Source: Pseudisothecium myosuroides
Lineage: Eukaryota > Streptophyta > Bryopsida > Hypnales > Lembophyllaceae
Direction of reading: 5' to 3'
Assembly: GCA_951799445.1 (NCBI GenBank)
Contig: OX637290.1
Span: forward strand, 1,986,501 to 2,050,500
Length of the DNA stretch: 64,000 nucleotides
The notes under the pieces are model-generated. The model saw only the letters and a program-made list of their open reading frames with translations, made no database searches and was not told where the DNA came from. Shown in pieces: positions 177 to 62,215 of this stretch (positions within the stretch are counted from its first letter, which is position 1; the number at the start of each line of letters is the position of its first letter). The position numbers were made by a program, and so were the translations under genes.

Positions 177-3100
177 TGCAATAGGAGGCACTAATGGCAG
201 CCCAAGTGTCGCGGCCAGCCCACCTCGAGGCTGGAACTCTTATGCCGCATTTTCGTGGGTCATTACAGAGGAACAGTTTCTCCAGAATGCTCAAGTGGTT
301 GCTGAAAAGCTTTTACCGTTTGGATACGAGGTAAGGTAGAGGATACTCTCTCCACCACTAAAAGCATTTTAAGCAATATACACGTGTGTTCTTTCATTGA
401 GAGATCACTCAATAGACAACAATGAATTGACCACCTTGACTGAAAGATCCAAACTCTCTTGAATTCGAATTTTCTCACTCAATGTGTGAATTTCTTATGC
501 AAGCGTTTAAAGTAGGAGGTCGTACACCTCTATCGAAGGGACAGAAAACCTCATTTGCAGTCAAAGGTTAGTGGTCATGAACATTTAGCCAAGTCATGCT
601 TACACACAATTAACTTGCTAATTGAAGGCCAACGGAGTCTACCGGAAGTAATGGGTTGCTGTTGTTAACAAGGATCAGGTCATTAACGGGTTTAGGGTTT
701 TAGGGTTTTAGGGTTAGGGTATAGGGTATAGGATGTAAACCACGCGTTTCTAATATGCGGCTCCGAATGGTCCATCATGCATAGGTTTATGCATTAGGAA
801 TTAGGCTACCGGATATGTTTGGACTTACATAATCGGGACGTGAGATATTGGTGATATTTTTGTGCAGTATGTGGTTGTGGACTCCTATGGTACCGGAGAT
901 TGGAGCCCAACGCCTCCTCCAAATTTGGCAGGGATTTCCTTGACGCATATGGACGCCCTCAGCCCGACCCTGAACGGTGGCCGAGCTCTCGTGGTGGGCA
1001 AGGGTTTAAGCCTGTGGCCGACCTGGTGCACAAGATGGGACTCAAATTCGGTATTCATGTGATGCGCGGAATCAATCTCGCGGCAGTCAATAGCAATCTG
1101 CCCATTTATTCTGCTCAGGTATACGCAGCTAGCACATTTATAAAGGATGAGTACCCATGCTTTATTATGGTCAATTTGAGGCTGCTCAAGTTGAATCACT
1201 GCACTTCGTTCTTTCATTTTTCTGAAACACGCATATCATAAGATTGCCTAATGTACATAATCAATGGCTATGCCAGTAACCACGCGCTTCCCCTTCTCTG
1301 CACACTAAACTCACACCAACGATTCATTCAGTTACATTATAAGAAAAGTGGTTCCGTTCTTGTGCACTCTATCTACATATATTATCACTGATTTTAGAAT
1401 TGTAAGAACTTTCGTTGTATGAATGACCAACTTTTAATCTCTAGACAAGTGAGAATATCTAGATGTGCAGCGAACGATGGCTTTTTCTTGTTGAAATTTT
1501 GAACGATCATCACTAAATGTGCATTATTCTTGACCCACTTTTCTTGTGGAAGGTTCAAGGGTTTAACACAATAATTTTGAATTTACTAAGTATGCGATTC
1601 AACATGTGTGCGTGGAGGTGGGGTGGGTGGGGTGGGTGCAAGCAATGGCATGTATACTTTAGAGCTTGCGTAAAATTTGATGGAAGGGATAAAATGTGGT
1701 GGTCTGGGGTGGAGGTGAGCAGGGAAGTCCAGATGAGACGGGGCGAGCATGGACGACACGGGATGTATTTGTGCGTGGAGGAGAGTGTCCCTGGATGCCA
1801 CTGTCTTTCACGACAGTCAACACCAGTAATGCGGGCGGAATATCCTTCCTCCAGTCTCTTTACAACCAGTATGCAGCTTGGGGTGTTGATTTTGGTAAGT
1901 TTTGCATACCATGTCACAAGAGAAATATTCCTAAAGGACTTAGAACCTCAAATTGGGCCTCATGTTTTCGTATCAGTTTGGAGCTGGTCATATACCTGTG
2001 GACTTTCTTTCAGATGTTGATTTCTTTCTAAATTCTGACCAACTGATTCCTCACTGATTCTAGTAATACAAATTTTTGCCTCATTGAAATTTAATTTTTC
2101 GTAGTTTGATCAATCGAATTGGACATGCTCAAACGATGAGTTCTTTCACACTTCGTGGTTAAGTAGAAAAAGCATCAATATTGTGAATTCATAATATTGA
2201 CAGTGTGGATTGAAAAGTGATAAAGTTGAGAAGAAAAGTACGTAGTGAGGAAAAGCGGCAGTGTTGAAAGAAATAGTGTCATTTCAACCTCGTTTCTCCT
2301 CTTATGCTCTGAACCGGTGCTAGTGGTCTCATGCGTAGTGAACGTAATTGAGGCTCTGACATTTTGAAAGTGGTGTTTTGGAGCAGTGAAGCACGATTGC
2401 GTCTTTGGGAGCAGCTTGGTTCTGGATGAAATTGCAGCGGTGTCGGAGGTAACGTCCTGAGGTTATGTGACTTGTCCTAGATTGCAAGTCCCTGACTTCT
2501 GCCGGTATTAAGGACTTAATTTGAGGGTGAAAGATGTGTAGCCATAAATTTTTTGCTTGTGCATTCAGGCTATTGCCAACACCGGGAGGCCGATGGTTTA
2601 CTCTGTTTCTCCAGGAGATGGAGCTACTCCTTTAATGGGACGTGATGTAGCTCAGCTGGTCAATTTGTACCGTGTGACGCCGGACAATTGGGATTACTGG
2701 GGCTCCATGCGACCCCACTTCGATATTGCGAGGTTTGCCCTTGAACTGTGTTTTTCATGCTTTTGCTAAAGCTGGCTTGTTAGTTGTAGCATCCGGTAAG
2801 GAACCAAGGCGTCCTTTCTGGGAGCACGTACTTGTTCGTACCCAAACCTGTAAGCGATTGATTGCAAAATCAAACAACAGGATGGATCTTGGAAAGAGAC
2901 TATGATAATATACGGTGTGATATTCTTGTGTTATTTAGCGAAAAGATTACAGTATCTCAAATGTGTAAGGATCCTTCAGGGGTTAAACTATCATTATTTT
3001 GGTGCACGCTTGGATTCACAGAATATCTCGGAGCTAGGATCAAGATATCCTGATTGATAGCTTCTTGTGCAATTCCAGGGATTTTGTGAGTGCTGGGAAT

Positions 3101-3179
3101 ACAGGGATTATCCAGCGTGAAGGTGGAAGGTCATGGCCCGACCTTGATCTGTTTCCGTTTGGCCTGCTCACGCTTCCTG
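177..3179 (+). CDS. GH27 alpha-galactosidase-like gene, 5' part (exons upstream of the PLE)
   Basis: Secreted-type glycoside hydrolase of family 27, closest in remembered pattern to the plant alpha-galactosidase / beta-L-arabinopyranosidase group, which trims terminal sugars from cell-wall glycans. Exons read from GT-AG sites and phase: 177-330 (PPRGWNSYAAFSW), 868-1118 (RPQPDPERWPSSRGG, MGLKFGIHVMRGI), 1723-1894 (SLYNQYAAWGVDF), 2387-2448 (VKHDCVFG, which carries the family's catalytic nucleophile Asp), 2569-2732 (PMVYSVSPGDG, NWDYWGSM) and 3079-3179 (SWPDLDLFPFGLLT). Exon 177-330 begins in mid-codon, so the start and signal peptide lie off the left edge. Junction phases agree through exon 3079-3179 except inside exon 868-1118. 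There the Tyr codon expected after YVVVD has only two bases (883-884), which shifts the frame. Either the gene is broken or a base was lost in sequencing or assembly. Family assignment is confident; exact substrate is not. Confidence 0.88.
688..732 (+). repeat. Degenerate telomere-like array in GH27 intron
   Basis: About six short units around TTTAGGG, with variants TTTTAGGG, TTAGGG and TATAGGG, lie in the intron between exons 177-330 and 868-1118. TTTAGGG is the usual plant telomere repeat. The tract is short and impure, so it is either an interstitial telomeric remnant or a chance simple repeat. Confidence 0.6.
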
Positions 3180-3226
3180 GTGAGAGATCGACAATCTACT
3201 CTTAATGCAACGTAAGAGACAATGTG

Positions 3227-3231
<5 letters not shown>

Positions 3232-3280
<49 letters not shown>
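3232..3280 (+). repeat. (GA)n microsatellite at the 3' end of the PLE
   Basis: About 24 uninterrupted GA units (TC on the PLE's coding strand) abut the outer end of the left direct repeat. The equivalent edge of the right repeat, at 8892, has only five GA units. The long tract is therefore either expanded element sequence or a pre-existing microsatellite that served as the insertion site. Confidence 0.9.
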
Positions 3281-3284
<4 letters not shown>

Positions 3285-4401
3285 CATGACACCCCATTGC
3301 GGGCAGATTCCTACAGTTCCCCAATTTTTCTAAGACAATTAAGCATCCCATAATATCGTAAGGCTAAGGCATCAGTGCAACCTGATGTTTGCCATGAAAC
3401 AGATTGTAATGACAGTGTGATAAAAACACATACCCCACTGGGAGGGAGGGTGGGTACAGCATGAATCAGTGAAAGCATGACCTTAGAAGAATCATGATAG
3501 ACACAAATAACCGTGAGATACCAGTATTTCAAGAAAAGTGTACAGTGTAAAGCTTAGGAGTTTTTGACTGCTGGAGTTTGCTCCTAAACAAGTAATATTA
3601 CACAAACCAATCGGACCAAAAAAATAAAAATTTTAAGCAGGAGTACACACAAGTTCTGGCCAGAGAAAGGCCAGAGTTACTGTCACGAAAATAACAAGCT
3701 GCAACCTTAGCCTTCTATCTGTTCAAAAACATAGCAAAGCTTAAGGAATAGAGGTGTCGAAAAAATAGTAATCTTGTCGTCCGTATCTGCCAAAAAATAG
3801 AGGGAATGCTCCTCACCTACGCCCATGCAAAACAACAAACATGAAGTGTGTTAGATTACGTGCGTGAGGTGTCTTCAGAGCATATCCAAGTTGTTATCCT
3901 TGTCACTGTTTTTAAGCAGAAAAGTAACGCAAGATGAGCATGATCCTAACATAAGGAACGTCACAAACAAGCACAAGAATTTTTTCTACTCTCTTTTGTG
4001 TAAAAACCTGTTCCTTAGCGTTGTCCAGAGGAATCGCTCGAGGTTGTGAGGTTGCCATTGCTTTACGATCAGATTTCCACAACCACTGTTCCACAAGTAA
4101 ACGACAAGGTAGCAACGTGAACAGCAAAGTTCTGCCACAAGCAGTATCAACAGCAAAGCTCCTCCACAAGATGTCAGCAAAAAAGAATGTGCTGACGTTC
4201 ATTCTTGGAATTAATCAGATCACCGATTAACCATGGGTGGCCGTCTGATGCAGTCAAAGCTGGTCGTTCTTCCATCTGTCCCTCATGAATGAGCAGGAAG
4301 GTAATGTAATAATGTGAACTTGGAGTGGTGTTAATGGCCATGAAATGCCATGTGTGTGTTTTTAGGTGGAAGCACATAGTGTACTGGTCCAAGCACCTTG
4401 T
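3271..4401 (-). repeat. PLE terminal direct repeat, downstream copy
   Basis: 1131-bp repeat, matching 8892-10022. The match starts inside the GA tract and ends at CACCTTGT, after which the two sequences diverge. It holds no convincing protein-coding ORF; the short frames in it are all under 100 codons and occur identically in both copies. It should contain the element's termination signals. Confidence 0.92.
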
Positions 4402-4856
4402 ACCCAGGGCCATTAAGATAGTTACAGCCTTCAATGACCTGTCCGTTAGTTTCTGGCAATTTATTGTATCTTGCATCCAGAAATATGCTCTGATGCGTAT
4501 CACAACTTGGGATGGTTCCATACGTGTTTAATAATAGAAGCACAAAATAACGACTTTATTATTATAGTCCAAAAGAATTCTTTTGGAGAGAGAGAGAGGG
4601 AGAGAGAGAGAGGCCCGCCTACCACCCCTGGCAGCAACGCTCTGTAATAAAAAGAATGAGACCTGGTATATCGTCACTCTCTGAACAGAGGTGCGTACCA
4701 GGCTCATGCTTACATAGTGTTAATTTACATAATGTGAATAACTCTCTCCAATGACAAATTGAAACACGACTAACTCTCTATAAACAGCAAGTGTGAACGA
4801 TAGTACCAGTGTCATAATAATGAATTTGGTATACCATAAACTCTTGGTCTATAGTC

Positions 4857-6989
4857 TCATTGGTTGAGAAGTTGTATAATTGTATGAATGTTAACTCTGG
4901 AAGCAGGGAAGTCGCCAGCAGTTAACCATTCAGTAACTTTTTTCTGAAGTCGAGACATTTGGAAACCATTGCTTCCGAGTGCCTGTATTATTAACTGGAT
5001 CTCGTATACCGCTGCATTGGTATCATTAGATATGTATAAGATCGGCATCACTTGTGAGATGATGATGTTATAAGACTGTCGAACAGGCCTATTAGAGTGA
5101 AATTTGATAAACTGTGTGTACTTAAAGGGGAGATTCCGCCTCTTGTCAAATTTCCTCATAATGAAGTTTTGTGGTTGATCTGGAGTCAAATCAAATTGGA
5201 CATTCATAAAATGGGCAGAGATGCCCCGTGTAATGTCATTGGACGCATATGAGCTTACTTCAGTTTTGATTTCAAGTATATCCAATGGATAAATCCAGAA
5301 TGGATTGTCTGGAGTTCGTGGTTGTTGAGGTGAAAGAAAATCTAGGGGATTGCCTACATTCAGCCAACAAATATCGTCAATATACCGAAAGGCATATTGG
5401 AATTTTTTCAGCAGATCCAGCCGACCCAGGGAGGCCAGTCGTTGTATGAAGCGTACCTCGTATGTCATAAGATAAACATTGCACCATAATGGCGAGCATG
5501 AGAATCCCATCGGAATTCCACGAGTTTGTCTCCATACTCTGTCTCCAAGGGATATGAAACAGTTGTTTATTAACCACGTATGCAAAGCCAGTAACCGATT
5601 CTGCTCCATGAGAATCCATCCCTCTGAAAAAGGTCGTGAGGTACCCCATCTGGCTGTAGTGGGAGTACCATCCTGGGAAATTTTAACCCAAAGTTTAGTC
5701 TCGGTTTTTGGATGTAGTAGTGATGCCTCTTGGAAGCCCGTGCGAAGCATGAAACGCAACGCATCAGGTAGGTTGTCTTGCCCAGTGATTGGAATGGACT
5801 CATAGCACTTCGTAACGTCTGCAACGTAGATATCGTGCAACTGATCGGGTAGATTCATGGTGACGTTCAAGACCGAGTCAACAATCCAGAAAGATGAAGT
5901 ATGTGTTCCAAGAAAACGAAGATAACCGTTATCTTTCTTTCTGGCCCAGGCTTTAAAGGAGTCAAGGACCACCATTGTAGTGACTGTGAGTAGTGTAGCA
6001 ATATTACTATACACTGTGTGGAAGGCATTAGTTAACCAACGATAAGTATGCTTATGTTGTTTGTATGTTGCCATCAAAAATGGTAGAGAATTAAATAGCG
6101 GGGGAAATTCCGGTAGTAATTCAAGCAGTTCATGCTTAACCTGATCAAAAATCACTGTGGGGAGTGTCCATCTGGTGTTTGTCATGCATGGAGTAAAATC
6201 CAGTCCCATGAGCCTTTGGAACGCTTGAAGTCGGATATGCCGTATACATACAAAACAAGCATTGTTGGTTGCTTTATCAAGCCCAGAGATGTACAAGCGA
6301 GATAATAACCATTGCATCTCATTTCTTATTGTTGGTATGCTAAAGAGATCAGGGCCTGATTCTTTGAAGCCATATTTGTTAGTGCGTGCAGCAATACGTA
6401 GTTTGTCCAAGCATAGATTTCGCAGGAAGCTCAAAGCAATTACCAAATCCAGGTGGAATTCCTGAAGATTCAACATAGCGTAGAGCCTGGTGAATGCATC
6501 TGCCGTCACATCCAAAGCCTCACGAAAGTCCGTGGGTCGTAAGGGAATGTGGTTCATGCCTTGCATGAAAGCAGCACGTAGGCGAGGGTTTTGAATAATG
6601 TGCAGGTCCATTGATCGAACATGGTGGCTTGGTTTACAAAAGTCAGAGCTTTCATTGACAGTTAAAGCATCCAAGAAGGGACGGAGACGAGAAGCAGAAG
6701 AGCAATCACATGACGCATTGGAGTCAAGTAAATCAAAAAATGTGAAGTGTTTGAAAACCGCAGAGGGTTTATAAACTTTAGTAGCAAGGTTATGATCGTA
6801 AGACCATGAAAAGGCTATAAGCTCAAGAGATGCATGTTCTGATAATCCAAAATAACAAAAAACTTCACTGAAAATTTGGCGTAGATCGAGCCACTCTAGC
6901 GCCCTGCTGCAGTAGAAGATATGTAAATATCGTACGCCATGTTTTTCCGAAACCCGTCGAAGCTTGAGCCTCCCGTATGAATCCTTCAC
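4857..6989 (-). CDS. Penelope-like reverse transcriptase, no GIY-YIG domain
   Basis: 710-aa protein that would copy the element RNA into DNA. The long N-terminal region (about 1-235) has no recognised domain. PLE-type RT motifs follow in order: DKATNNACFVC (about 238-248), LPFLMATYKQHK (about 302-313, with the KxHK signature of this group), DVTKCYESIP (391-400, first catalytic Asp), GIPMGFSCSP (491-500), YIDD (536-539, catalytic Asp pair), then HSNRPVRQSYN (about 631-641), matching the conserved thumb-region motif of PLEs. It ends about 70 residues later, with no room for the GIY-YIG nuclease of canonical Penelope elements. The frame is intact and all catalytic Asp residues are present, so the enzyme may be active. 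The ATG lies 44 bp past the ORF1 stop, which suggests a dicistronic message. Confidence 0.85.
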   Translation of the reverse strand: MKDSYGRLKLRRVSEKHGVRYLHIFYCSRALEWLDLRQIFSEVFCYFGLSEHASLELIAFSWSYDHNLATKVYKPSAVFKHFTFFDLLDSNASCDCSSASRLRPFLDALTVNESSDFCKPSHHVRSMDLHIIQNPRLRAAFMQGMNHIPLRPTDFREALDVTADAFTRLYAMLNLQEFHLDLVIALSFLRNLCLDKLRIAARTNKYGFKESGPDLFSIPTIRNEMQWLLSRLYISGLDKATNNACFVCIRHIRLQAFQRLMGLDFTPCMTNTRWTLPTVIFDQVKHELLELLPEFPPLFNSLPFLMATYKQHKHTYRWLTNAFHTVYSNIATLLTVTTMVVLDSFKAWARKKDNGYLRFLGTHTSSFWIVDSVLNVTMNLPDQLHDIYVADVTKCYESIPITGQDNLPDALRFMLRTGFQEASLLHPKTETKLWVKISQDGTPTTARWGTSRPFSEGWILMEQNRLLALHTWLINNCFISLGDRVWRQTRGIPMGFSCSPLWCNVYLMTYEVRFIQRLASLGRLDLLKKFQYAFRYIDDICWLNVGNPLDFLSPQQPRTPDNPFWIYPLDILEIKTEVSSYASNDITRGISAHFMNVQFDLTPDQPQNFIMRKFDKRRNLPFKYTQFIKFHSNRPVRQSYNIIISQVMPILYISNDTNAAVYEIQLIIQALGSNGFQMSRLQKKVTEWLTAGDFPASRVNIHTIIQLLNQ

Positions 6990-7033
6990 GAGGATTCTAT
7001 TGGCTTGACCTGCACATAAGAGTAATCATATCT

Positions 7034-8665
7034 TCACTGGTCAAATTCTTCCCAATTAAGGGATCTACCCCTCAAAGTAAGTCGTTCAGAGCGAGGAGCT
7101 ATACGACTGGAAGCTGTCTCATAACGCAGCGGAGATGGAGATCTGGTAGTTGAGATCGAGTAGCTGGGAGAAGGAGCATGGGAACGTGAGTATGCTGGAT
7201 CGGGTGACTGCGCTGTAATAGCCTGGCGAAAAGCTGGCGAATTGCGGTTCGAAGCGCTCAGGAAGACAAAAGCTTCATTAGCTCCGGAGCTGTTACCACT
7301 GCGAACAGGTGGTGTGTGCGAGACTGAATGAAGAGGTGGTTGTTCGCGGTTGGTTGGGCGATATTTGTGGTTGTAACCACCACGACCACCCCGGGCTCCT
7401 CTTTGACTACCTCTTCCTCGGGAATCACGAGAAGGGACAGTTGTCATGGGCGGACCAGGGCTAACGTTACAATTGATCAACCCGCGTGGACGTTTTCCAT
7501 TAGCATTGGGACTAGGGGTACCAGGATTAGAAACAGTGAAAGCAGCAGGCTTAAGAAGCCGTTCGATTTTTCTAATCCCAAGACCATCTGTGTGATGTGC
7601 AAGCAAACGGGAGTTTGGATCCTTCACTAATTCCAAAGCTGCCTCAACCATAAGGTCCCGAGCATAATTAAACGCGACTTGGTGACGTACAGCCACCCTA
7701 GCAGCCTCCGAGATCCACGTCAGAAAAGCCACAAATTTCGCAGATAACGTCGGGAAGTCCGAGTCTGGAAAGAAGATACCCAAGTTATTGATCATGAACC
7801 AAGTGGCATGGTCAAACCACATCACGTCCCCGCGACATCCTGATCTGTTGTCTTTTGGGCACAAACATCGCAGGTAGGGACGTTGCACGTTCCATAAAGC
7901 GGACGTGAACTTATCCCCTCTACCGTAACCAGTTAAGATATCTTGCTTGGTATGAATTTTCAGCTCCCTATTGTAGCACTTCTGGTGGTCATAGAGCACC
8001 AGTGGGAAGCTTTGTGGTATATCCTGTGCTTCCTTTAGCAGGCACGTATTGTGCACTACATTGGATTTCAGCATTTCAATCTCATTTGTACCAAGATTCG
8101 CCCATGTTTTCCACATGTTGATCGAGATCGGTGCCAGTAGGTTGATGTTAGGGAGTTTCCAACAACGGTGCAACTTTAAAGCCACCTCGTACTCCACTAC
8201 TCTCGCTGGTGTGAAGGGCACAACTGGTCCCTTGCCTGATGACATAAGTGAAGCATGATCGATCTCCTCCTGTGAGTTGTGGATTGATGAAGTAAAATCC
8301 TCCAAGGCCGCCTTTTGCGCTTCCGGGATGATTATCCCGCCAAGCAAAGGGTGCGGTGCTGGGGTCGCAGTGTCAGACAAGTTTGTGGCGTTGGATGATG
8401 ATTCATGAGGGTTGGCTCTTCTCAGTGCCGTATCGACCAGTTTGGTGTTCTGGTTAGCAAGTTCCAGTTCTTCAGATTCGAAGTCAAGGATAGCAGCCAG
8501 ATCCGCTTGAGCAAGCTTGAGTTGTTCCAGAGCTTTATCTACGTCCTTCTTAATTGCCAGTGCAAGTATCAAGGTCCATTGAGAGAGGTCGAGAGTAGTG
8601 AGCAGCATGGGGGCGTGTTCACCTTCATCGTCGACGTCCAGCATGGCAGCACGATCATGCTCCAC
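7034..8665 (-). CDS. PLE ORF1: coiled-coil / RGG-box protein, putative nucleic-acid-binding
   Basis: 543-aa protein with no family I recognise. An acidic, helical N-terminus (about 35-85) rich in Leu, Glu and Ala is likely to form a coiled coil. A middle region (about 155-370) carries a small Cys cluster, CLCPKDNRSGC (267-277), and aromatic-rich segments, and looks globular. An RGG-type basic stretch (about 413-430: RGRGSQRGARGGRGG) is followed by a low-complexity Ser/Pro/Arg tail (about 450-525). By position and make-up it resembles a Gag or ORF1 chaperone that would package element RNA; this role is inference. The frame is intact and just upstream of the RT. Most described PLEs have a single RT ORF, so a large separate ORF1 is unusual. 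Confidence 0.75.
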   Translation of the reverse strand: MEHDRAAMLDVDDEGEHAPMLLTTLDLSQWTLILALAIKKDVDKALEQLKLAQADLAAILDFESEELELANQNTKLVDTALRRANPHESSSNATNLSDTATPAPHPLLGGIIIPEAQKAALEDFTSSIHNSQEEIDHASLMSSGKGPVVPFTPARVVEYEVALKLHRCWKLPNINLLAPISINMWKTWANLGTNEIEMLKSNVVHNTCLLKEAQDIPQSFPLVLYDHQKCYNRELKIHTKQDILTGYGRGDKFTSALWNVQRPYLRCLCPKDNRSGCRGDVMWFDHATWFMINNLGIFFPDSDFPTLSAKFVAFLTWISEAARVAVRHQVAFNYARDLMVEAALELVKDPNSRLLAHHTDGLGIRKIERLLKPAAFTVSNPGTPSPNANGKRPRGLINCNVSPGPPMTTVPSRDSRGRGSQRGARGGRGGYNHKYRPTNREQPPLHSVSHTPPVRSGNSSGANEAFVFLSASNRNSPAFRQAITAQSPDPAYSRSHAPSPSYSISTTRSPSPLRYETASSRIAPRSERLTLRGRSLNWEEFDQ

Positions 8666-8891
8666 AATGTATTCGTGAATACGGGGGGTACTGATAGCAG
8701 CCAGGGTCGCTTGTACCGCCGGTGCAGGAGCAGGGAGGGGATCTCCATAGCCAAGATTGATCAGGTCCGATGCCCATTGAGGTTGTTCAGTATGGGACTT
8801 GTTCTGAGTGGACGGTTGTGCCTATCAGTAAGAAAAAAACGAAACTGTGAGAATCCAGTAGAGGCTCACCACCTCCACGTGAATAAATAGC

Positions 8892-10022
8892 AGAGAGAGA
8901 GTAGACATGACACCCCATTGCGGGCAGATTCCTACAGTTCCCCAATTTTTCTAAGACAATTAAGCATCCCATAATATCGTAAGGCTAAGGCATCAGTGCA
9001 ACCTGATGTTTGCCATGAAACAGATTGTAATGACAGTGTGATAAAAACACATACCCCACTGGGAGGGAGGGTGGGTACAGCATGAATCAGTGAAAGCATG
9101 ACCTTAGAAGAATCATGATAGACACAAATAACCGTGAGATACCAGTATTTCAAGAAAAGTGTACAGTGTAAAGCTTAGGAGTTTTTGACTGCTGGAGTTT
9201 GCTCCTAAACAAGTAATATTACACAAACCAATCGGACCAAAAAAATAAAAATTTTAAGCAGGAGTACACACAAGTTCTGGCCAGAGAAAGGCCAGAGTTA
9301 CTGTCACGAAAATAACAAGCTGCAACCTTAGCCTTCTATCTGTTCAAAAACATAGCAAAGCTTAAGGAATAGAGGTGTCGAAAAAATAGTAATCTTGTCG
9401 TCCGTATCTGCCAAAAAATAGAGGGAATGCTCCTCACCTACGCCCATGCAAAACAACAAACATGAAGTGTGTTAGATTACGTGCGTGAGGTGTCTTCAGA
9501 GCATATCCAAGTTGTTATCCTTGTCACTGTTTTTAAGCAGAAAAGTAACGCAAGATGAGCATGATCCTAACATAAGGAACGTCACAAACAAGCACAAGAA
9601 TTTTTTCTACTCTCTTTTGTGTAAAAACCTGTTCCTTAGCGTTGTCCAGAGGAATCGCTCGAGGTTGTGAGGTTGCCATTGCTTTACGATCAGATTTCCA
9701 CAACCACTGTTCCACAAGTAAACGACAAGGTAGCAACGTGAACAGCAAAGTTCTGCCACAAGCAGTATCAACAGCAAAGCTCCTCCACAAGATGTCAGCA
9801 AAAAAGAATGTGCTGACGTTCATTCTTGGAATTAATCAGATCACCGATTAACCATGGGTGGCCGTCTGATGCAGTCAAAGCTGGTCGTTCTTCCATCTGT
9901 CCCTCATGAATGAGCAGGAAGGTAATGTAATAATGTGAACTTGGAGTGGTGTTAATGGCCATGAAATGCCATGTGTGTGTTTTTAGGTGGAAGCACATAG
10001 TGTACTGGTCCAAGCACCTTGT
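8892..10022 (-). repeat. PLE terminal direct repeat, upstream copy
   Basis: Second 1131-bp repeat, upstream of ORF1 on the coding strand; it probably holds the promoter. It appears identical to 3271-4401. Between it and ORF1, about 225 bp of unique leader (8666-8891) is shared with neither repeat. Confidence 0.92.
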
Positions 10023-10143
10023 CTATTCTAATCAATTTAACGAATGATGAAGACCGAGTGTTTCATGTATAGTTGTGAAATACTAGCTGCTTACAAGGAG
10101 AATTAATGCAAAGATCAAGCCTATTTTTGTAATTTACTTTCAG

Positions 10144-11215
10144 TAAACGTCGTTCCAGCAGGTAAGTGTTACACATTTATGAACCGTCTTTTCATGATGC
10201 CCAGGATCATGGTAATTGCAGCCAGAAGATGTGCAGTGCGTGCTAACAGTGCTAAAAACAGTGCAGATGACACTATGGGCCATTTCGAAATCGCCTCTCT
10301 TCAGTGGTGGTGATCTGCGGTACCTGGATGCCAGAACGCTCGCTCTTCTCACCAATTCCATGCTGCTTGACATGAATTCCCTGTCAACTCACAACCAGGA
10401 GGTGCTGGAGCTCACCGTCATTGTTTTGTTTTTCTCAATTGTATCTAGACAGGCGTGGAGACTTTACTATTGATCTCCTTGAGCATCTGGAAGTCGTCCT
10501 GTCGCCGAAGCGTTTGCAAGTAAGTAGAATTCCTCGGTCGTCTTTTCGGGAAACATGATTATTCTAGCACGGTGACAATGTGCAGCTGCAACTTATAAAC
10601 CAGTCGAGTGATGCACGCGTCTGGGTCGCCCTTGACCCTTCAGGTACATAAATAAGCCCGGGATCAGCAAGGCAAACAGTGGTGTCCATGTCCATTTCCT
10701 TAACAGGGTTCAAATGTCCATGTACTGACCGACTTTCTCAATTTCGATCTAGTCTCACCGAGCTGACAACCACTGAGGCTGGTTCTGTTTTCGATTGAAT
10801 CCTCAGCAATCTCGGACGTCCTGTTTTTGTAGGCAAGGTCCTGTGTGAAAATTGCGTACATCAGAGCCCGAAAGTTTTGGACATCCAAATGCTCAGAACT
10901 CTACAAACTAGAATTGGTCAAAATCTGAGGTTCAAAACGGGCACTGATGCATGGATTTTCTATTTCATTGCAGGAACGTGGTTCGTAGCGTTCTTCAACC
11001 TCGGTTCGTCCTCTCCACAAGAATTAACGATCACTGCCAGCTTCGCCCAGGTGAGCCAAGCGCTTGTGGGTCATTCCAGCGGATCATGCGGCATGAACAC
11101 TTGTGTATGGCAGGATGTGTGGAGTGGGCAACAAATGGGCTTCATAACGGACCCAATGCGGGCACAAGTAGCCTCACACGGTGCCAGGCTTTACTCTGTC
11201 ACGTGCAAATGCTGA
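10144..11215 (+). CDS. GH27 alpha-galactosidase-like gene, 3' part (exons downstream of the PLE)
   Basis: C-terminal half of the same gene. An 18-bp microexon, 10144-10161, has good splice sites and fits the phase left by the exon ending at 3179. The next exon starts at about 10250 or 10262 and encodes QMTLWAISKSPLFSGGDLRY and LLDMNSLSTHNQE, the end of the catalytic domain. Then come 10453-10519, 10586-10643 (SSDARVWVALDPS) and 10974-11215 (TWFVAFFNLG to the TGA), forming the C-terminal beta domain. The last three exons join in phase. The exon ending near 10399 does not: it ends in phase 0, the exon at 10453 needs phase 2, and the gap is only about 50 bp. So this part either carries a second frame disruption or uses a splice I cannot see. 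Confidence 0.78.
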
Positions 11216-11484: not shown

Positions 11485-11690
11485 CGTGCCTGTGCCGTTG
11501 CTACAACCAAAATAAAAGTAAAATAATTTTTCTAATTTTTTAGTTCATAGATACTTTGAAATTTAGTATCTTTTCTTCCGTAAGTTGGATCGCCACGCAA
11601 CCAAGCCCGTGCACCCCTCCTTGCTGAGGGAGGGACGCACGGTCTGGGAGATTTCACTGTAACTAACAAACAAACAAATACCCTATTTTA
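11485..11690 (+). repeat. Dispersed repeat family R1, copy 1
   Basis: Starts with GCCGTTGCTACAACC, runs through an AAAATAAAAG stretch and a 'cttccgtaagttgg' segment, and ends in an ACAAACAAACAAA tail. The same order recurs near 12155-12640, 13380-13760 and, inverted, 61690-62215. The tail could mark a retroposon, but I see neither TIRs nor a TSD. Confidence 0.6.
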
Positions 11691-13379: not shown

Positions 13380-13760
13380 AGACTACTCTACCCTATGCCA
13401 TTGCCACAGCCAAAATAAAAATAAAATGATAGTCTTAAAAAATGAAAAAATTGCCGCTAGGGACGTGGTCATCTCATACTTTTTATCAATGGAAATGGTC
13501 ATGTGCTTCAAGAAAAAAGTATTAAAAAAAAAATTGGAAATAAATAAATAAATAAATGTAAGTTTTAATTTTTTTATTCATAAAAAATTCAAAATTCAAT
13601 ATCTTTTCGTCCATGAGTTGGAATGCCTCAAAACAAAGCCTGGGCACCCTGCCTTGCAGTGAGGGCTTTCCCACAGTACCAAGAATGCAACCCGGGGACG
13701 CATTGTCCAAGAATCTCACCATAACAATCAAACCAGCCCCGGGACTAGCCCTTTTTTTAA
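13380..13760 (+). repeat. Dispersed repeat family R1, copy
   Basis: Begins CTATGCCATTGCCACAGCC, contains the 'cgtccatgagttggaatgcc' and 'gtaccaagaatgcaacc' segments, and ends in AATCTCACCATAACAATC. It is the longest R1 copy in this cluster. Confidence 0.6.
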
Positions 13761-14619: not shown

Positions 14620-15291
14620 TCAGGCCTTGAAGTTGGCTTTGATCTGCTGCACGGTCTTCTCGCTCACCTTGAACGCCTTCTCCAGCACCTCGTCGCTGAT
14701 GGGAGGGGTAGCGCCGAACAAGGCCGCAGCCACTTGCTGCACACCCGGGTTTTGGCTACTCAGCGCCGCCAACGCCACGGCCGGTTTCTTGCCCACATTC
14801 AGCTGGAAGTGCACCAGGGCCTTGGGAAACACAAATACATCGCCCGCGTACAACGTGGTGGCGAACAGCTTGTTGGCCGTGGTCACGAAGCCCACGTACA
14901 GCTCGCCCTGCAGCACCGTCAGGATCTCGGTGGCGCGCGGGTGGGTGTGCGGTGGGTTGAGGCCGCCCTTGGCGAAGTCCAGACGTGCCAAGGAGATGCC
15001 CAGCGTGTTGAGTCCGGGCAGCTGCGCGGCGAAGACGGGCGTGACAGCGAGGCCGGTGGGGTTGTTGGTGTTGCCGGCCTTGTTGAGGCCGTGGAACAGG
15101 AAGTCCGTCACCTTGACGTCGGCGGCGTTCTTGCACACGAGCCCATTGATGGTGATCTTGCTGGTGGCGTCGGCCACGCAGAAGTCCTGGAGCGGGTCGG
15201 GGTCGGCGGCGAGTGTCAGCACTGGCAGCAGAATGAGAACCGTCGCTTGCAGCAGGAGGGCCGCCAACGCCATACGCTTTAGCGTCGCCAT
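14620..15291 (-). CDS. Germin-like protein (secreted cupin)
   Basis: 223-aa, intronless germin-like protein. Residues 1 to about 28 form a hydrophobic signal peptide, so the product goes to the apoplast or cell wall. The mature N-terminus DPDPLQDFCVAD and NGLVCKN supply the conserved disulfide pair (Cys38, Cys53). Cupin box 1, LNPPHTHPRATEI (111-123), gives His115, His117 and Glu122; box 2, DVFVFPKALVHFQLN (151-165), gives His161. All four metal ligands are intact, so manganese binding is expected. Germins form stable hexamers, and members act as superoxide dismutase or oxalate oxidase; which applies here cannot be told from sequence. Length and order are normal for the family. Coding GC is well above the surroundings, and no damage is seen. 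Confidence 0.95.
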   Translation of the reverse strand: MATLKRMALAALLLQATVLILLPVLTLAADPDPLQDFCVADATSKITINGLVCKNAADVKVTDFLFHGLNKAGNTNNPTGLAVTPVFAAQLPGLNTLGISLARLDFAKGGLNPPHTHPRATEILTVLQGELYVGFVTTANKLFATTLYAGDVFVFPKALVHFQLNVGKKPAVALAALSSQNPGVQQVAAALFGATPPISDEVLEKAFKVSEKTVQQIKANFKA

Positions 15292-15523
15292 GATCTTGTC
15301 GCTAGGTGGCTTCGATTAGCCGGCTAGAATCCTCTTCGATTGATCAGAAAAACCAAGCGTATGTGCACAAGAGCACGAAGGAAAATAATCGTTAGTGAAT
15401 CTGCTCGTGTACAGTCGAAACTCGCACTACAGGCAAACGGCGTGAAAGAATTGCACAAGCAGGCTAGAAGGCTTAGATGCTAGAGAAATTGATGAGATGA
15501 GAGTCAAGGTTCGCCGCGCGCCA

Positions 15524-56094: not shown

Positions 56095-57911
56095 CAGTAA
56101 GGTCTACTTCATTTACGAATTTTTGAAATCGCAGGAAAGGGAATTTCAAATCTACCAACTTTGACAGCCTCCCGAGGGCTCAAAAATTGGTCTTTGGCCA
56201 TGAAATTTTTACCACAACTTCATCTTAAAGTTAATTATATGTGTGCCAAATTTCAAGGTCAAATGATTTACACAAAAAAATATATTCACAATCTCCCAAC
56301 ATGTGTAGCCGTGAAAAAAATTTGACTATTGCCAACTTTGACACACTCCCAAGGACTGAATTTTCTTTTTCTTTTTCTATGAAATTTTTGGCATAGAACC
56401 ATCTATATTTTGATTAAATGTGGAAAAAATTTCAAGTCCAAAAGACCCCCCAAAAAATAGATATTTAAAATCTCCCAACATGTGTATTTGTGAAACAATT
56501 TCACTACTACCAACTTTGACACTATCCCAAGGGTTGAAAAATTGTTTATTTACCATGAAACTTTTATGATGAAATCATCTCTATATTAATAACATGTGTG
56601 CCAAATTTCAAGTTCAAAAGATTCACACACAAAAAAATATGCCACTTCTACCAACATGTGTAGTTGTGAGAAAAAAAATTTCAGCCCTTGGGATAGTGTA
56701 ATTTTTTGGGTTAAAACTTTCACATGGATGTAGAAAGTCATTCTCACAACTACACATGTTGGTAGAATTAGAATATCTTTTTTTCGGTAAATCTTTTGAC
56801 CCTGAAATTTGGCATACATTTTATCAGTATAAAGATTATCTCATGCCAAAATTTTCATAGTAAAATGTGTTTTTTACAGCCCTTGGGACAGTGTCAAAGT
56901 TGGTAGTAGTGAAATTTTTCTCACAACTACACATGTTGGTAGAATTGGCATATTTTTTTTTGTATGAATCTTTTGAACTTGAAATTTGGCACACATGTTA
57001 TTAACATAGAGATGATTTCATCATAAAAATTTCATGGTAAATAAACAATTTTTCAACCCTTGGGATAGTGTCAAAGTTGGTAGTAGTGAAATTGTTTCAC
57101 AAATACACATGTTGGGAGATTTTAAATATCTATTTTTGTGGGGGGTCTTTTGGACTTGAAATTTTTTACACATGTAATCAAAATATAGATGGTTCTATGC
57201 CAAAAATTTCATAGAAAAAGAAAAAAAATTCAGTTCTTGGAAGTGTGTCAAAGTTGGCAGTAGTCAAATTTTTTTCACGGCTACACATGTTGGGAGATTG
57301 TGAATATCTTTTTTTGTGTAAATCATTTGGCCTTGAAATTTGGAACACATATAATTAACTTTAAGTTGAAGTTGTGGTAAAAATTTCATGGCCAAAGACC
57401 AATTTTTGAGCCCTCAGGAGGCTGTCAAAGTTAGCAGATTTGAAATTCCCTTTCCTGCGATTTCAAAAATTCGTGAATGAAGTAAGGTAGGAGGCTCAGA
57501 AATGGAGCATCTAAGGGCTGGTCCGTCTTTTTCATGTATTTCCTTGGACGGGAATATTTTTAGCTCATTTTTCAGACATAGAGGAACTGACGAGGAATCT
57601 AACCCAAGTGGTTTCGTATTTTTCCAATAATTTTTTAATTACTTATGAATTTTCAAACGAGTTGGGTTGTAGGTCCCTATTTGTGACCGTAGGTCTTTCA
57701 TAAACGGTTCACTTGCAATTTCAAATAAAAATGGGGAAAGCAAAGAGATTGATTGGCTCTTGCAATTAATAATGCTTTTTTCCTTGATTCATTCAATGAC
57801 TGTGTCTGTCAATTTCAGAACCAACTCATGTCCATTTCACAACCATTTATAGGATCCATTCTTAATGCCCACTCTGTTTTACAGCCTCCTACCTTAGACG
57901 TGGCCTTACTG
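56095..57911. mobile_element. 1.4-kb hairpin element with TA TSD, interrupted by a family A MITE
   Basis: Ends CAGTAAGGTC... and ...GGCCTTACTG, flanked by TA (56093-56094, 57912-57913). Without the MITE it is about 1405 bp and almost wholly palindromic, centred near 56730. Each arm itself contains three to four diverged copies of a roughly 150-bp unit: 'caactttgacac', 'cccaagg', 'aatttc-tggca', 'caacatgtgtag'. The outer TIR resembles family C at 39854. The MITE at 57485-57894 lies in the right arm near its outer end. Confidence 0.85.
57485..57894. mobile_element. TA-flanked MITE (family A) nested in the hairpin element
   Basis: 410 bp, TA at 57483-57484 and 57895-57896. Nearly identical to 40688-41096. 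Its insertion in the right arm of the 56095 hairpin dates it after that element. Confidence 0.9.
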
Positions 57912-61689: not shown

Positions 61690-62215
61690 CTTTATTTTGA
61701 TTGTGGCAAAATAAAAGTATCCATATCTTAAGTTAGGTTGTTTGTTTTGTTTTGTTATGGTAAGATCTCTTGGATTGTGAGTCTCCCGGTTGTGCTCTTG
61801 ATACTATCGGAAGTCCTTAGCAAGGAAGGGTGTACAAGCTTTGTTTCTTGGCGTTTGGACTCATGGAAGAAAAGATATTGAATTTCAAAATTATTATGAA
61901 TTAAAAAAATTAGAAAATCACTTTTATTTTTATTTTGAAAATAGCAACGATACAGTTCACACTAATTAGGGGTTAAATGAAGTTGTTTGTTTTATTTGTT
62001 TATTTGTTACGGTAAAATCTCATAGACCATGAATCCCCGGGTCAAATTCTTGGTACTGTTGGAAAGTTCTCTACGAGGAGGGGTGCATGGGTGTTGTTCT
62101 AGACCTATGGTGAGAAAGATGTTGAATTTCATAGTTTTTATTATGAAATTAAAAAAATTAAAAAAATTACCTTTACTGTAAGTTTGACTGTGGCAATGGC
62201 ACATGGCATCATATC
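61690..62215 (-). repeat. Dispersed repeat family R1, two inverted copies in tandem
   Basis: Two units (about 61690-61900 and 61905-62215), each the reverse complement of the 11485-type repeat: TTTGTTATGGTAAGATCTC or TTTGTTACGGTAAAATCTC, then 'gtgta/gtgca', 'aagatattgaatttc', and TTTTATTTTGA-TGTGGCAA. Confidence 0.6.

Follow-up and report, generated by a model that had tools for sequence, protein, structure and literature searches.

A two-ORF Penelope-like element without an endonuclease in a moss intron, and simple-repeat tails that may prime its insertion

Introduction

How do Penelope-like elements (PLEs) that lack an endonuclease (EN) insert away from chromosome ends? The question is raised by a 64,000-nucleotide stretch of the moss Pseudisothecium myosuroides (hereafter the window, G000:C4:1986501-2050500, in a 387.9-Mb assembly of 222 contigs), where one such element lies within a host gene. 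Exposed chromosome ends or breaks have been proposed as the primers used by EN-deficient PLEs (PMC3846280; this and the other papers are cited from excerpts). The copies described here are dispersed, encode no protein with a match to the GIY-YIG endonuclease domain, and carry, 3' of the open reading frame (ORF) for the reverse transcriptase (RT), a conserved motif followed by a simple repeat that goes with the RT lineage. We favour, with modest confidence, an EN-independent insertion primed by pairing of this simple-repeat RNA tail with genomic microsatellite ends. If true, this would link telomerase-style primer pairing to dispersed retrotransposition and would suggest that the RNA tail sets the target.

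Results

An intact two-ORF element without an endonuclease match

Positions 3271–10022 of the window hold an intact two-ORF, endonuclease-less PLE on the minus strand. The RT frame was open over 4857–6989 (710 aa; 722 aa from stop to stop, starting at 7025), and contained the PLE motifs TYKQHK, DVTKCYESIP and YIDD. In an alignment of the window RT with 33 relatives, the residues K310, H312, K313, D391, Y536, I537, D538 and D539 were invariant. The protein is a telomerase-related RT with PLE motifs, as in the PLE order, and in this respect a first reading made from the sequence alone (the sequence-only reading) was borne out. The same holds for its statement that a GIY-YIG domain is lacking, as none of the 34 RT proteins matched this domain at E ≤ 0.1, whereas RVT_1 was present in 32 of them, with a few stray weak Pfam matches beyond it. 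The integrase, RNase H and protease domains of long terminal repeat (LTR) retrotransposons were not recovered; apart from RVT_1, Pfam gave only stray weak matches across the 34 RTs and 51 ORF1 sequences. An origin from LTR or LINE retrotransposons was ruled out by folds and domains, and no matching loci were found in IMG/VR or in prokaryote genomes.

Upstream of the RT, a separate ORF1 of 543 aa, as first read, was open over 7034–8665 (minus strand; 595 aa from stop to stop, starting at 8821). In the predicted model, the N-terminal domain is helical and modelled with confidence, and the tail is disordered. When the 50 homologs listed were aligned with it (51 proteins), at least three RG pairs occurred within the last 170 residues in 32 of the 36 proteins longer than 450 aa, the 15 shorter ones being left out of this count. 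Pfam returned only stray weak matches for the 51 sequences, and comparison of the ORF1 fold with PDB and viral models gave no convincing match, an absence that does not imply a new fold. Candidate splice acceptors precede both frames: the one at 8822, before ORF1, has 14 of 16 pyrimidines and ranks joint top with three others among 145 sense-strand YAG sites, while that at 7010, before ORF2, has 10 of 16.

The element is flanked by direct repeats (3271–4401 and 8892–10022) that showed 0 mismatches in 1131 positions when compared base by base, and that could not be extended by a single base at either end. Their identity, and with it the youth of the element, therefore stood as first read; what needed correction was their nature, since they are the pseudo-LTR (pLTR) arrangement of PLEs, in which a 5'-truncated upstream copy precedes a full copy, and not LTRs, and the element runs on the minus strand. 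Such tandem pLTRs are a mark of the PLE order. A search with the pLTR gave 29 genome matches, mostly to its conserved block B alone, and two ORFs within the pLTR had no Pfam match at E ≤ 0.01. Block B holds inverted-repeat stems (identified by eye) and AG/GTGAGG, and could be an RNA structure or a splice donor. Outside 3271–10022, no other PLE copy was found in the window by blastn, and all tblastn matches had E values of 0.7 or worse.

Copies are dispersed along the chromosomes

A search of the same genome with the RT protein, which the sequence-only reading had called for, gave 69 matches. At least 36 of these, the window's own among them, were near-full-length (at least 594 residues covered), and 22 of the 36 were free of stops; a match at C7:4282764 (624 residues covered, 11 stops) was left out. 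On contigs C1–C10 (363.6 Mb), the number of copies near contig ends was close to that expected: 0, 1, 4 and 11 of the 36 lay within 0.5, 1, 2 and 5 Mb, respectively, against expectations of 0.99, 1.98, 3.96 and 9.9. The 36 copies thus show no telomere bias and are interstitially distributed, which generalises the placement first read for the window element, inside a gene and away from the telomere. Telomere association is typical of EN-deficient PLEs, if not strictly defining, and was not found here. Thirty RT loci were fetched and read, ten of them after extension by ~900 bases; ORF1 lay upstream of the RT in 29 (the exception being L054), as in two-ORF EN-deficient PLEs.

Several further loci bear on how these elements are put together. 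At G000:C2:34.25 Mb (L013, L014, L044), the 3' pLTR region had 90% DNA identity to that of the window, with 61% protein identity in the RT; L043 had an RT region like that of L044 (92–93% DNA identity) and a different pLTR. From these loci, PLE modules seem to have been exchanged at the CT tract. Short copies consisting of the pLTR only, with CT tracts on both flanks, were seen at L009 (6980–8321) and L011 (7586–8838). Separately, twenty CCCTAAA units occur within the initial 6 kb of the contig that holds the window (L016, G000:C4:1-6000), which suggests a telomere close to this contig end, the element lying ~2 Mb further in.

A conserved and probably structured RNA motif follows the RT

In 28 of the 30 loci, a conserved motif of 75–90 nt (motif A) was found 3' of the RT stop; L045 lacked it and L055 reads N there. 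A hairpin within it was assessed on 19 of the 28 sequences, after leaving out nine rows that were identical or differed by one base. Pairing was possible in 94.7% of cells, and two pairs varied between sequences: one pair is A-U in 11 sequences and G-C in 8, another U-A in 18 and A-U in 1. Nine cells were changed on both sides and the covariation score was 0.227, values that were each reached by 0 of 500 shuffles, and sliding the hairpin brought pairing down to 46% or less. The innermost pair was broken in 5 of the 19 sequences. In addition, the loop could pair with the downstream strand, the mean longest helix being 9.8, compared with 5.8 (maximum 6.7) for shuffled strands and 7.5 (maximum 8.6) for strands swapped between sequences. 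This suggests a pseudoknot; in several CT-family members, including the window, the longest loop helix differs from that of the other families.

Folded singly, four members gave z values of −4.6, −4.5, −2.7 and −2.7. An outer CCTGG...CCAGG stem appeared less consistent by eye than the hairpin, and was of the kind favoured by the minimum-energy fold in two of the four, so the hairpin and the outer stem may be alternative conformations. That motif A is a structured RNA is well supported; its exact fold is less settled, because related sequences inflate covariation counts. Motif A had no match in Rfam (10 loci, E ≤ 0.5). Rfam hammerheads were likewise absent from window positions 3000–10300 at E ≤ 5 and from the 10 loci at E ≤ 0.5, and a loose scan for the hammerhead core motif found nothing on the sense strand and a single match on the antisense strand, within the RT ORF.

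Simple-repeat tails go with RT lineage and recur at integrated ends

Directly 3' of motif A, a simple repeat was present in 28 of 28 loci and was of four types: CT (8), TTC (8), GTTT (3) and T6-7C (9). Mapped on the RT tree, these states required three changes, the minimum possible, as compared with a mean of 15.2 after shuffling (as low in 0 of 200), a result that is helped by near-identical copies. The pLTR itself ends in a small hairpin identified by eye (motif E), which is mostly followed by the family's own repeat. In the CT family, 8 of the 9 ends read had a terminal tail after motif E (L041 lacked one), with 24 CT units in the window, 10 in the C3 copy, 8 in the C4 copy, an interrupted tract in the C2 copy, and 8, 10, 9 and 11 units in L039, L040, L042 and L043, respectively. 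Because other copies carry (CT)n tails, the (GA)24 at window positions 3232–3280 was dropped as proof, on its own, of a target microsatellite. In the TTC family, L046, L047, L049, L050, L051 and L053 had 2–10 tail units, and L052 and L054 none. The letters after the tail were identical in L046 and L053, and the sequence after the tail of L051 was that found after the tail of motif A in L050, which fits tandem joining at repeats. The three T6-7C ends read (L064–L066) had T6 or more and then diverged.

In the GTTT family, L056, L061 and L062 end in GTTT/GTTTT tracts that all adjoin the same genomic repeat, R. Since L061 and L062 were 99.5% alike through the element ends, while their adjoining R copies were 83% alike over the first 133 bases, they look like separate insertions rather than one duplicated block. 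Two R copies free of a PLE (no motif E in the 90 bases before R) were found: one in L075, 743 bases further on, is preceded by a long GTTT/GTTTT tract, and one in L014 is preceded by TTTGTTTTTTT. These two PLE-free R copies follow a GTTT-rich or T-rich tract, and are the nearest thing to empty sites that was seen. Diverged copies of R (70–75%) also occur in the window at 11506–11630, 13566–13708 and 61764–61936.

A proposed route of insertion and its alternatives

In the scheme we propose, the element RNA would be bound via its 3' structured motif. Where a genomic microsatellite is nicked or broken, the simple-repeat tail (CU here) would anneal to the complementary strand. The genomic 3' end paired in this way would be extended by the telomerase-like RT, so that no endonuclease would be needed, and truncation at the 5' side together with end joining would complete the copy. 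Packaging or chaperoning of the element RNA is the probable task of ORF1; this role, like tail pairing and priming, is one that we infer. The scheme would parallel that of Terminons, which prime at telomere ends, except that a microsatellite would stand in for the telomere repeat. A more far-reaching version, which we put forward tentatively and with some doubt, is that the EN-less PLEs here left the telomere when a telomere-complementary tail was swapped for a lineage-specific microsatellite address that, together with the structured 3' motif, guides the telomerase-like RT to genomic microsatellites, the variable length of the tail reflecting telomerase-like reiterative copying; this would make it an RNA-addressed, cutting-free form of retrotransposition.

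Several observations weigh against priming at microsatellites. In motif A, 9 of 500 shuffles had at least as many pairs with both sides changed (2), and 262 of 500 at least as many further pair types (6), the latter number being no higher than in shuffles; for L052 and the window, the minimum-energy fold was a long alternative stem and not the hairpin. Three ends (L041, L052 and L054) have no clear tail, and tail length could also grow by slippage. The window and C2 copies have no CT tract on their 5' side. The C4 copy has (TC)20 at its 5' side, running directly into element position 5534, an arrangement that is ambiguous between a split target microsatellite and an internal CT tract with ~96 bases lost after it. 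Tail and target are indistinguishable in the CT family, for which no empty site was seen, and the evidence from empty-type sites comes from two copies of R, itself a repeat.

The second reading of the C4 (TC)20 lowers our confidence in microsatellite priming, and in its more far-reaching version, and raises it for opportunistic capture at random double-strand breaks, in which the tail would be just the end of the RNA or a by-product of RT slippage, with no choice of site. The differing tail lengths of close copies (CT 24, 10, 8 and interrupted) would be expected from such capture, as would the two flanks of the window element, which share no word of 5 or more bases, and for EN-deficient PLEs, deprotected telomeres or double-strand breaks are the reported sites of priming (PMC3846280). 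Such capture accords poorly with the finding that three GTTT-family elements adjoin the same repeat, R, and that R has a GTTT tract of its own in a copy without a PLE, and we regard break capture as the less probable account, unlikely if still a serious contender. Far less probable is a third account, that an endonuclease acts in trans from another element, such as an EN-bearing PLE of the same genome, and that microsatellites are simply accessible. EN-bearing and EN-deficient PLEs do coexist in Adineta vaga and kuruma shrimp, yet, according to the same source, nothing points to cross-mobilisation in A. vaga, and fungal genomes have EN-deficient PLEs only (PMC3846280). The 22 stop-free near-full-length RTs, the four lineage-linked tails and the conserved RNA motif make the insertion question directly testable.

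Features of the locus and its host gene

The coordinates of the element and its host intron are collected in Table 1. Without the insert, the intron would be 210 nt long. Seven pieces of the flanks were submitted to Pfam, three of which matched a GH27-type alpha-galactosidase and four nothing: Melibiase_2 (PF16499) at 855–1238 (16.5 bits, under the cut-off of 23) and at 10216–10473 (23.4 bits, barely over it), and Melibiase_C (PF17801) at 10799–11212 (35 bits). The flanks showed no target duplication at the level of shared words of 5 or more bases, and neither junction carries a TTTAGGG-type repeat. Four TTTAGGG-type units form a short telomere-like array at 688–732, within the host gene region and ~2.5 kb away from the element. 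At 868–905, the start of a host exon and a conserved block appear to be in different frames (by eye, against relatives), and the gene may be a pseudogene here or the sequence may contain a base error.

Table 1 Positions of the element's parts and of the enclosing intron within the window.
Feature	Position	Strand	Remarks
Whole insertion	3271..10022	-	upstream 5'-truncated pLTR copy, full unit and downstream pLTR
Upstream pLTR (X) copy, 5'-truncated	8892..10022	-	identical to 3271-4401
(CT)5 tail bridging the upstream pLTR and the 5' end of the full unit	8892..8901	-	
ORF1, 595 aa from stop to stop	7037..8821	-	helical N-domain, RG-rich disordered tail (predicted)
ORF2, telomerase-like reverse transcriptase	4857..7025	-	no GIY-YIG match
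Motif A, conserved, probably structured RNA 3' of the RT ORF	4615..4704	-	
CT tract immediately 3' of motif A	4585..4613	-	
Downstream pLTR (X) region, full length	3271..4584	-	
Block B, conserved part of X	3800..3906	-	second copy 9421-9527
Motif E, small hairpin ahead of the terminal tail	3281..3306	-	by eye; second copy 8902-8927
(CT)24 read in the sense of the element, either its terminal 3' tail, a target microsatellite or both	3232..3280	-	
Intron of the alpha-galactosidase-like host gene, enclosing the insertion	3182..10143	+	ends by eye from splice-site letters

Elsewhere in the window, arrays of a ~177-bp satellite, apparently in two opposite orientations (by eye), occupy 56152–57437, and a piece of a cupin-domain gene (PF00190, E = 4e-53) lies at 14623–15315 on the minus strand.

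Discussion

Relation to known Penelope-like elements

The element is best explained as a young, apparently intact EN-deficient PLE of a plant lineage shared with Selaginella. Both Selaginella and conifers are recorded as having EN-deficient PLEs (PMC9033089), and the RT was 34–38% identical to three Selaginella moellendorffii proteins (SELMODRAFT_432251, _425932 and _425444), which, like the window element, have no GIY-YIG match (E ≤ 0.01). An ORF1-like block was found upstream of the RT in two of these three gene models: the ORF1 profile scored 90 against the N-terminal part of P0173 (39% identity over 72 columns) and 68 against that of P0177 (26% over 129 columns), with a weak score of 38.5 for P0176. 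For comparison, 20 shuffles of the first 360 residues of P0173 gave no more than 22.2, and six other RT proteins no more than 21.0. Unlike the Selaginella elements, which a review describes as telomere-associated (PMC12477314), the copies here are interstitial, and the RTs are deeply diverged. Among the relatives listed, Ceratodon purpureus KC19_6G001700 (P0074, a single protein model) shared 75% identity with the RT along 410 aa and was its sister in the tree.

The sequence-only reading had also raised the possibility of a PLE clade not yet described, or of a new architecture. The depth of the divergence from the Selaginella RTs speaks for a new clade, as does the fact that just 1 of the 120 relatives listed carries an organism name (Ceratodon); we nonetheless think it improbable, given that Selaginella shares both the RT and ORF1, likewise without a GIY-YIG match, and the claim of a new architecture falls, since two-ORF PLEs without EN are already described (PMC6431247). 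No moss EN-deficient PLE with microsatellite tails appeared among the open-access matches listed, the primary papers on EN-deficient PLEs lying outside their scope.

Compared by description, the Athena/Terminon elements of bdelloid rotifers likewise lack an EN and have an RNA motif at the 3' end, after which comes a short simple repeat with the potential to pair with the target end, Terminon RNAs carrying telomere-complementary repeats that adjoin a ribozyme (PMC12477314, PMC6431247). The elements here differ from them in having no Rfam hammerhead beside telomere-complementary 3' repeats, tails of microsatellite rather than telomere-complement type ((CT)n in the window), and positions away from chromosome ends. 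With the EN-bearing Penelope/Poseidon elements, they share the tandem pLTR layout and the telomerase-related RT; in Poseidon, reverse transcription starts internally in the RNA (PMC11167929). In contrast to these single-ORF, GIY-YIG-bearing elements, those described here have two ORFs and no EN. What is new, then, is not the two-ORF EN-less architecture, but the probably structured motif together with lineage-specific simple-repeat tails and interstitial copies.

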